Shown: one piece after another, positions 24,845 to 26,477 of the stretch
Numbering within the stretch: the stretch's first letter is position 1
Layout of the letters: every line of letters begins with the position of its first letter
From: Aquanectria penicillioides
Lineage: Eukaryota; Ascomycota; Sordariomycetes; Hypocreales; Nectriaceae
NCBI GenBank assembly: GCA_003415625.1
Contig: PYIU01000002.1
Span: 3,100,001 to 3,164,000, forward strand
Reading direction: 5' to 3'
DNA: 64,000 nucleotides
Notes under the pieces: model-generated
The model's input: only the letters and a program-made list of their open reading frames with translations
Told to the model about the DNA's origin: nothing
Databases searched by the model: none
Position numbers and translations under genes: made by a program

Positions 24845-25022
24845 AGCAATTTGGCGCAGTGGAAGCGCGGTACGTTCTTTCATCCACACGCATATTCTGG
24901 ACATTCAACTAACTTTGCTCAGCCGGGCTCATAACCCGGAGGGTACGTCTCATGTTCGATCCCCGAACACAGCAGAATCTAACAATATGAAATAGTCGCA
25001 CGATCGAAACGTGCAATTGCTA
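24845..25022 (+). tRNA. tRNA-iMet(CAT): Initiator tRNA-Met (CAT), copy 1, interrupted by two GT-AG introns
   Basis: Exons: 24845-24869 (25 nt), 24923-24942 (20 nt) and 24996-25022 (27 nt). Joined, they form a perfect 72-nt cloverleaf: acceptor AGCAATT with AATTGCT, D stem GCGC/GCGC, anticodon stem CCGGG/CCCGG with loop CTCATAA, variable AGGTC, T stem GCACG/CGTGC with loop ATCGAAA, and discriminator A. Initiator marks seen are the A1-T72 pair, three G-C pairs beside the anticodon loop, and A54 plus A60 in the T loop. Intron 1 (24870-24922, 53 nt) lies between tRNA positions 26 and 27: donor GTACGT, CAACTAAC branch, end GCTCAG. Intron 2 (24943-24995, 53 nt) lies between positions 46 and 47: donor GTACGT, ATCTAAC branch, end AATAG. 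The A box TGGCGCAGTGG is intact at 24852-24862. The introns are not at the canonical 37/38 site. Confidence 0.93.
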
Positions 25023-25025
25023 CTC

Positions 25026-25034
25026 TTTTTTTTT
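25026..25034 (+). terminator. Pol III-type T run after initiator tRNA copy 1
   Basis: Nine T residues begin four bases after the last tRNA base. This is the normal position and form of a Pol III terminator, and argues that the whole split gene is a Pol III transcript. Confidence 0.8.
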
Positions 25035-25443
25035 GGTCATAGAGGACCTCTCCCTCTCTCTCTCTCTTTTTTTTTTTTTACGTGGGGTGTATCAGCGAAG
25101 GAATCCGTGGGGGTTGGAAAAGAAGAGGTAGAAACCGCTTGTGTGTGGTACAAATGAAGATGAGCCTCAGACAGAAACTGACATCAATGGCGTGTACATG
25201 CTCTGCCAGCCAAAGCCCTTTTGTTTTGTTTTTTACAATATCCTCTTGATGGAAACTCGCATTCCCATTCCACCGCTCCTAGTTAAGCTAGATTAATTAA
25301 ATTCTACAGAAATGTGTGCTGGGGGAGGTTTGACAAGAAATCGCGAATCTACAACCCCACTCTGCCCCGCCACACAGCAAACGGCACCACCCCAGCCGAA
25401 AAGCTAGATACAAAAATAAGAGAGCGCAAAACAACATCGACAA
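25035..25443. other. Spacer between initiator tRNA copies 1 and 2
   Basis: It contains a TCTC repeat and T12 run near 25050-25079 and a TTTTG repeat near 25220. No gene was seen, and no clear similarity to the spacer after copy 2. Confidence 0.5.
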
Positions 25444-25621
25444 AGCAATTTGGCGCAGTGGAAGCGCGGTATGTCTATATGATATCTTGAGGCACCATGT
25501 TCGATTGCTAACTTACTCCAGCCGGGCTCATAACCCGGAGGGTAAGCCTCATCATCGATTCCTCCTCAGGAAAGTCGACTAACTTGCAATTCAGTCGCAC
25601 GATCGAAACGTGCAATTGCTA
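25444..25621 (+). tRNA. tRNA-iMet(CAT): Initiator tRNA-Met (CAT), copy 2, interrupted by two GT-AG introns
   Basis: Exons: 25444-25468, 25522-25541 and 25595-25621, each identical in sequence to the matching exon of copy 1, giving the same 72-nt initiator tRNA. Intron 1 (25469-25521, 53 nt) has donor GTATGT, branch TTGCTAAC and end CTCCAG. Intron 2 (25542-25594, 53 nt) has donor GTAAGC, branch CGACTAAC and end ATTCAG. The introns sit at the same tRNA positions (26/27 and 46/47) as in copy 1 but have mostly different sequence, apart from splice-like signals and a short CATGTTCGAT or ATCGATTCC-type string. The A box is intact. Copy 2 is in the same orientation as copy 1, about 420 bases downstream. 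Identical exons with diverged introns imply selection or conversion acting on the mature tRNA. Confidence 0.93.
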
Positions 25622-25625
25622 CTCC

Positions 25626-25634
25626 TTTTTTTTT
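25626..25634 (+). terminator. Pol III-type T run after initiator tRNA copy 2
   Basis: Nine T residues begin five bases after the tRNA 3' end, in the same place as in copy 1. Confidence 0.8.
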
Positions 25635-26254
25635 GGGCCTCCTTTCTTTTTTACGCAGTAATTTCCATTATTATGCATAGCATGGTGGATATTTGCACCC
25701 GTATTTCTGCTACATACCAACAGTGCCCAGAACACGAGCATAACGAGGGTAGGACAGAGATGACATCAACTGGATCTCAACTTAAATCATGTCATGAACG
25801 GCACGATTCTATGTTCTGGAAGACCGTTGAAAGAGCTCATGATAAGCGGAAACAATCATGCCCCAAGCTATAAGACGATTGTTCATACATGCATCAGCGC
25901 TAATGAGTTCTTTTGTTTATATTTTTTTTAACAAAGTTGTTCGGATTTCCACGTCTCCCCTGTGGCATCACGACAGCTGACTTGTTACATCTTCTGCCTC
26001 GCTTACCTCGTAAGTTGTGATTAGCATCCATTCGGCGCCTTCTGTTTTCGTAGGTTCGTGATTTTCCTTCGTAGAAAAGGGAAATATGGGTGAGTCACGC
26101 TGAGGGTGAGCATGTGTCATGCAGCCGGAAGGTTCATCATGCGAGACTTGCAGATATATCGAGAGTCTACTGAAGATTACCCAACGGACGGGATTCCTGG
26201 AGAGCCTCAGATTCAATTCATTTTGAAAATAAAATAAAAAAGTTTTAGAAGAAC
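25635..26254. other. Spacer between initiator tRNA copies 2 and 3
   Basis: No protein-like frame or other RNA gene was recognised. An open frame on the minus strand at 25968-26471 runs through tRNA copy 3 and is spurious. Confidence 0.5.
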
Positions 26255-26264
26255 AAAAAAAAAA
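26255..26264 (-). terminator. Pol III-type T run downstream of initiator tRNA copy 3
   Basis: Ten A residues on the plus strand read as T10 on the minus strand, 27 bases beyond the 3' end of copy 3. The distance is longer than in copies 1 and 2 but within the range of fungal tRNA trailers. Confidence 0.6.
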
Positions 26265-26291
26265 GAGAACATCCGAGGATGGATGGTATTT

Positions 26292-26477
26292 TAGCAATTG
26301 CACGTTTCGATCGTGCGACTGTATTATGTGTGAGTTAACACTGATCATCGGATCGGAGTTGAACTGGTGAGGCTTACCCTCCGGGTTATGAGCCCGGCTG
26401 AGGTGAGTTAGCCAAAGATTGTTAACTTGTGATTGACGTGTTTTAGACATACCGCGCTTCCACTGCGCCAAATTGCT
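26292..26477 (-). tRNA. tRNA-iMet(CAT): Initiator tRNA-Met (CAT), copy 3 (inverted), interrupted by two GT-AG introns
   Basis: Minus-strand exons: 26477-26453, 26397-26378 and 26318-26292, identical in sequence to those of copies 1 and 2. Intron 1 (26452-26398, 55 nt) has donor GTATGT, branch TGGCTAAC and end CCTCAG. Intron 2 (26377-26319, 59 nt) has donor GTAAGC, a TGTTAAC branch-like motif and end ATACAG. Their lengths differ from the 53 nt of the other copies, so length is not fixed, but positions and signals are. Orientation is opposite to copies 1 and 2. The anticodon is CAT, and the full set of initiator marks (A1-T72, GGG/CCC in the anticodon stem, A54, A60) is present. Confidence 0.93.

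Follow-up and report, generated by a model that had tools for sequence, protein, structure and literature searches.

Introns of the mRNA type are a known feature of U6 snRNA genes in fungi such as Schizosaccharomyces pombe and Rhodotorula. For tRNA genes, a review of their introns calls non-canonical introns rare in eukaryotes and names nucleomorphs and Cyanidioschyzon merolae as cases; in the available main text of that review, the word stem "spliceosom" is absent (PMC4090602). Among the matches listed by a search of titles and the starts of abstracts in open-licence PubMed Central, a collection that mostly leaves out the subscription literature, there was no report of spliceosomal introns in nuclear tRNA genes.

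We analysed a 64,000-nt stretch of the genome of Aquanectria penicillioides (contig PYIU01000002.1, positions 3,100,001 to 3,164,000), called the window here. Direct reading and an exact pattern revealed three initiator tRNA-Met genes in the window, each with two introns. Common to all three loci are the exon pieces AGCAATTTGGCGCAGTGGAAGCGCG, CCGGGCTCATAACCCGGAGG, and TCGCACGATCGAAACGTGCAATTGCTA, of 25, 20, and 27 nt. A sequence-only reading of this DNA had described these exon lengths, introns of 53-59 nt that start with GTACGT, GTATGT, or GTAAGC and end with CAG or TAG, and a TAAC-type branch motif in all six introns. It had placed the insertion points at 26/27 and 46/47, unlike the canonical 37/38. 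The exact pattern reproduced these lengths, starts, ends, and borders (intron lengths 53, 53, 53, 53, 55, and 59 nt), and YTAAC was found in six of six introns with its A 10-16 nt upstream of the intron end. Since the interruptions fall at 26/27 and 46/47, the middle exon consists of the anticodon arm plus three bases. The anatomy of the genes, which is certain, is as follows.

24845-25022, plus strand: gene 1 (exact pattern)
24845-24869, plus strand: gene 1 exon 1, with acceptor 5′ strand, D arm, and A box, 25 nt
24870-24922, plus strand: gene 1 intron 1 (26/27), GTACGT...CTAAC...CAG, 53 nt
24923-24942, plus strand: gene 1 exon 2, anticodon arm with CAT, 20 nt
24943-24995, plus strand: gene 1 intron 2 (46/47), GTACGT...CTAAC...TAG, 53 nt
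24954-24962, plus strand: B-box-like GTTCGATCC within gene 1 intron 2 (motif comparison)
24996-25022, plus strand: gene 1 exon 3, with T arm, acceptor 3′ strand, and its own B box GATCGAAAC, 27 nt
25026-25034, plus strand: gene 1 Pol III-type terminator, T9 run
25444-25621, plus strand: gene 2 (exact pattern)
25444-25468, plus strand: gene 2 exon 1 (exact pattern)
25469-25521, plus strand: gene 2 intron 1, GTATGT...CTAAC...CAG, 53 nt
25522-25541, plus strand: gene 2 exon 2 (exact pattern)
25542-25594, plus strand: gene 2 intron 2, GTAAGC...CTAAC...CAG, 53 nt
25553-25561, plus strand: B-box-like CATCGATTC, one mismatch, within gene 2 intron 2
25595-25621, plus strand: gene 2 exon 3 (exact pattern)
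25626-25634, plus strand: gene 2 Pol III-type terminator, T9 run
26292-26477, minus strand: gene 3 (exact pattern)
26453-26477, minus strand: gene 3 exon 1 (exact pattern)
26398-26452, minus strand: gene 3 intron 1, GTATGT...CTAAC...CAG, 55 nt
26378-26397, minus strand: gene 3 exon 2 (exact pattern)
26319-26377, minus strand: gene 3 intron 2, GTAAGC...TTAAC...CAG, 59 nt
26356-26364, minus strand: B-box-like GTTCAACTC within gene 3 intron 2
26292-26318, minus strand: gene 3 exon 3 (exact pattern)
26255-26264, minus strand: gene 3 Pol III-type terminator, T10 run, starting 28 nt past the gene

Joined, the exons give a 72-nt RNA in which all 21 cloverleaf pairs are formed and all are Watson-Crick, bearing out the earlier description of an initiator cloverleaf. 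The joined exons contain A1:U72, a GGG/CCC anticodon stem around CAU, and an AUCGAAA T loop; we take A1:U72, three G:C pairs before the CAU loop, and this T loop to be marks of eukaryotic cytosolic initiator tRNA. The minimum-energy fold of the unmodified RNA (-27 kcal/mol) differs from the textbook cloverleaf in that the acceptor and T stems are present and the D/anticodon part is paired differently, and 18 of 200 shuffled 72-mers folded at least as well. Because fold predictions that omit modifications often depart from the cloverleaf, we did not count this result against tRNA identity.

We scanned the 53.8-Mb genome, in 13 contigs, with near-exact patterns and found six split initiator genes on three contigs: the three window genes with a further one on C6, and single genes on contigs C1 and C7. 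All six are interrupted at both 26/27 and 46/47. When up to three mismatches were allowed, a 25-nt segment of the T arm had six matches in the genome, all exact, with none for the reversed control, and the anticodon-arm exon recovered the same six genes plus one three-mismatch match, again with none for the control. The additional match (C7:265019, L083) has no surrounding tRNA and was rejected as an initiator. The initiator-typical GGGCTCATAACCC was present in exactly the same six genes, and its reversed control gave four chance matches. A DNA search of the genome with the joined 72 nt yielded zero matches. Since the same search with tRNA-Asp, used as a positive control, returned 11 full unsplit copies and one relic, it is able to detect unsplit tRNA genes. 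The sequence-only reading had set, as a check beforehand, a search for an intronless initiator gene elsewhere in the genome; at the sensitivity tested, the three patterns and the DNA search found none in the 53.8 Mb. Pattern scans of two contig collections that contain no fungi, viral_contigs and genome_contigs, gave no match, as would be expected. Conservation across the six loci is strong, with exon bases identical at 72 of 72 positions in all copies.

The 12 introns of the six genes are 52-60 nt long. All 12 begin with GTANGY at the exact exon border and end with YAG at the exact 3′ border, and 11 contain a YTRAY branch sequence in the right zone, its A being 10-16 nt upstream of the intron end. 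Only intron 2 of the C1 gene (L009) departs from this: it has no YTRAY near its end and carries only CTTAC and CTCAA, rare branch forms in Fusarium introns according to the available part of a Fusarium study (PMC5677156). The full set of three signals appeared in two of the 200,000 shuffled introns drawn, compared to 11 of the 12 real introns. For 2022 Fusarium introns, the same part of that study gives A at +3 in 74%, G at +5 in 93%, T at +6 in 66%, and a CTRAY branch in 91% (PMC5677156), and the tRNA introns agree with this profile at +3, +5, +6, the branch, and YAG. They depart from it after the 3′ splice site: the next base is C for every intron 1 and T for every intron 2, and a purine is preferred there in the Fusarium table (PMC5677156).

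The tRNA introns also resemble, in style and size, the mRNA introns of the one protein gene of the window that we spliced, which encodes succinate dehydrogenase and contains four introns of 56, 60, 65, and 78 nt. Its protein is identical to that of Fusarium anthophilum at 599 of 645 aligned residues; for a GH6 protein, the closest named matches were Cylindrodendrum (60%), Thelonectria (58%), Neonectria and Ilyonectria (both 57%), and Paramyrothecium (54%). We read these similarities as those of a member of the Hypocreales close to the Nectriaceae. At 52-60 nt, the tRNA introns fall short of a group I or group II catalytic core, which takes hundreds of nucleotides, and no group I, group II, or other family reached the gathering score when the window was scanned with Rfam.

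We compared intron interiors, minus the first six and last three bases, against a benchmark of the best of 100 shuffles. For intron 1, 14 of 15 pairs were no more alike than the benchmark and one exceeded it. For intron 2, nine of 15 pairs were at or below the benchmark and six exceeded it, so part of the conservation there may reflect recent descent. The closest pair of interiors was 0.82 identical. As read from the sequences, the features kept in all introns are those that a spliceosome reads.

Intron 2 also keeps CTCA after the 5′ splice site, its start being GTAAGCCTCA in five genes and GTACGTCTCA in one. Base pairing of the CTC with the GAG in exon 2 could enclose the splice site in the loop of a hairpin; neither side varies among the six genes. 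The branch region of gene 2, like that of the C1 gene, contains an ATTGCT that could pair with the acceptor 5′ strand. Folding of the precursors, which we did not use as evidence, gave the anticodon arm a mean probability of at least 0.94 in five genes and of 0.21 in L010; values for the acceptor stem were 0.63-0.93 and those for the D stem 0.01-0.99 across the six genes.

Signals for RNA polymerase III (Pol III) are present in all six genes. Direct reading identified two intact boxes, one in exon 1 and one in exon 3, that we take to be the Pol III A and B boxes from their consensus, and T-runs of 6-13 start 4-28 nt downstream of every gene. The sequence thus contains the elements of a Pol III gene with an internal promoter: A and B boxes and a T-run terminator. 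TTTT occurs in none of the 12 introns versus 2.3 expected, a difference that is not significant and only suggestive (P 0.067). Intron 2 contains, in all six genes (L009, L010, and L014 included), a B-box-like block of the GWTCRANNC type that starts 12-14 nt into the intron, without mismatch in three genes and with one mismatch in three. The summed mismatches were 3 compared to 11.4 expected, a value reached by none of 2000 shuffles, and for intron 1 of the six genes the excess was absent (P 0.18). Part of this conservation could stem from shared descent of the introns. Possibly, the block serves as a second internal promoter element.

Could the tRNA splicing endonuclease account for these introns? 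The Sen complex could cut them at non-canonical sites and tRNA ligase could rejoin the exons, as in C. merolae, and this genome has two genes of the Sen type (tRNA_int_endo) as well as tRNAs with ordinary anticodon-loop introns. We searched for the bulge-helix-bulge (BHB) motif, defined as 3-nt bulges and a 4-bp helix, in every register that gives an identical product, and used as controls eight introns hand-picked from the 21 longer tRNA matches (L042-L062), with borders placed by eye. A 4-bp central helix was found in none of the 12 introns in any register, compared to four of the eight controls; the other controls had three of four central pairs (three introns) or one of four (Asn). Intron 2 had 0-2 of the four central pairs and scored like its shuffles (P 0.53-0.82). 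Intron 1 fitted better: with the register shifted by one base, three of three outer pairs and one to three of four central pairs formed in all six genes. The seven of 10 pairs in intron 1 of the C1 gene (P 0.03) are the main point in favour of an endonuclease, and gene 3 had six of 10 (P 0.05). Since three elongator Met controls, whose introns are real, also have no full central helix, its absence from the initiator introns is compatible with an endonuclease. Moreover, the negative result is weak because seven of the eight real control introns did not score above their shuffles at P 0.05, the exception being Ile (L051). All 12 introns thus appear to lack a strict BHB motif, in a test with little power, and intron 1 may carry a relaxed form of it. 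What counts more against this explanation is that an endonuclease gives no reason for GTANGY, YTRAY, and YAG to be kept at exact borders. Further, in the available parts of two papers, the known non-canonical tRNA introns of eukaryotes are either 3-24 nt long (nucleomorph) or of the BHB type (C. merolae) (PMC3978253, PMC4090602). We consider removal by the endonuclease unlikely.

Two other explanations strike us as less probable still, each with only a very slim chance of being right. One is that the split loci are relics and that a normal initiator gene outside the assembly supplies the tRNA. It gains from the near-exact nature of the genome-wide patterns and from an assembly that may be incomplete. 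Relics decay, however, as in the partial tRNA-Asp at C10:3000169-3000209 (L097) in the same genome, a 3′ half that has lost its 5′ half and that we rejected as a split gene, whereas the six initiator copies keep every exon base identical while introns and flanks drift. The genome scan also returned split genes only for all three initiator patterns. The other explanation accepts that the spliceosome removes the introns but has RNA polymerase II (Pol II) transcribe the genes as small non-coding transcripts. Splicing of the mRNA type normally rides on Pol II. Transcription by Pol II is at odds with the intact A and B boxes in the exons (by their consensus), the B-box-like block in every intron 2, and the T-runs that follow all six genes while TTTT is in no intron.

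The spliceosome offers the best explanation: with a probability of roughly 0.84, it would excise the mRNA-type introns of the six initiator genes from Pol III precursors. The sequence-only reading had proposed the spliceosome as the likely agent, and this prediction is supported by the conserved signals and by three further genes with diverged introns. Because the BHB test is weak, the conserved splice signals carry more of the case than that test does, and the weak BHB control and the pyrimidine after YAG slightly reduce our confidence. A further point against this explanation is that Pol III transcripts have neither the cap nor the Pol II tail, both of which help splicing. Pol III would transcribe a precursor of ~180 nt using the A box of exon 1 and the B box of exon 3, possibly with a contribution from the second B box inside intron 2. 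U1, U2, and U6 would recognise both introns, and two rounds of splicing would join the acceptor/D arm, anticodon arm, and T arm/acceptor pieces into the 72-nt initiator. A gene for Prp8 (PROCT) is present in the genome.

The other tRNA and small-RNA genes provide context. We scored 63 of 2343 first-look candidates and re-read the Rfam matches with ARAGORN, keeping predictions under 160 nt. Each of the 62 tRNA matches examined is either unsplit or interrupted by an ordinary intron in the anticodon loop, these introns being 7-31 nt according to ARAGORN, and no initiator is among them. Ala, Glu, Lys, Phe, His, Trp, Tyr, and other isoacceptors are also absent from these 62, probably because only 63 candidates were scored. 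In the elongator tRNA-Met(CAT) genes (L045-L047), the introns are ordinary ones that follow the anticodon. We saw no excess of split elongators with a pattern that combined a branch site, YAG, and an elongator B box: it matched 10 places, of which two are plain Gln tRNAs, and its reversed control matched 20. All 47 scored 5S rRNA matches are full length. A covariance model of the genome's tRNAs gave weak matches (25.8, 21.1, 16.7, and 15.5 bits) in four of the six initiator genes, each covering exon 1 and part of intron 1, at 25444-25510 and 26409-26477 in the window and in the same part of L009 and L014. As real tRNAs score 52-82 bits with this model, we took these matches, which consist of exon 1 and the first ~42 nt of intron 1, to be chance folds and rejected them as whole tRNAs.

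We found two U6 snRNA genes, of which L073 is intronless and L074 carries a 54-nt GT-AG intron directly before ACAGAGA (L074:1474-1527, contig C1 near 3831993). Within this intron lie a B-box-like stretch and a CTAAC branch. The precedent of U6 introns named in the sequence-only reading therefore has an example in the same genome.

Standard tRNA annotation can miss initiators in such genomes, if our reading is true. ARAGORN with default settings found no tRNA in the window, and Rfam found none in L009, L010, L013, or L014 even at E 0.1. When long introns were allowed, ARAGORN mistook window genes for Phe and Asp tRNAs and assigned L010 to Glu; it reported nothing for L009 and L014. According to the available part of an Aspergillus niger study, 14 ARAGORN tRNA models with introns of >100 nt were discarded (PMC6108506). 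Such a filter could lose split initiators, so the trait may hide in other genomes.

We also think it likely, with a little less assurance than for the removal of the introns, that this fungal lineage has handed its whole initiator supply to the spliceosome through three-exon Pol III genes with a 20-nt anticodon-arm micro-exon and a B box recruited in intron 2. These introns would then form a fourth class of tRNA intron, beside those of the endonuclease, group I, and group II. If so, the spliceosome acts on tRNA, and the tRNA and mRNA intron worlds, taught as separate, meet; Pol III transcripts can hold two spliceosomal introns each. With both introns removed by the spliceosome, initiator supply and translation initiation would depend on it, and through one essential tRNA the rate at which translation starts would be inherently coupled to splicing capacity.

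Among known systems, fungal U6 is similar in being a small RNA gene of Pol III with a short GT-AG intron and a YTRAY branch; here the host is a tRNA, for which a splicing pathway already exists, all copies found are split, and each gene has two introns. Canonical tRNA introns, removed by the Sen endonuclease and Trl1 ligase, likewise interrupt nuclear tRNA genes. They lie at 37/38, whereas the initiator introns lie at 26/27 and 46/47, number two per gene, measure 52-60 nt, and carry GT-AG and branch signals. Several ectopic introns in eukaryotic tRNA genes also occur in C. merolae and the Guillardia theta nucleomorph, although, in the available parts of the reports, those of C. merolae are bulge-helix-bulge introns and those of G. 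theta are 3-24 nt long, many with no defined BHB motif (PMC3978253, PMC4090602). Finally, archaeal non-canonical introns at 25/26, 45/46, and other sites occupy nearly the same places in tRNA as the introns described here; in the available part of the review, they are cut by the endonuclease of archaea at BHB motifs or relaxed forms of them (PMC4090602), unlike the initiator introns, on which the spliceosome is predicted to act.
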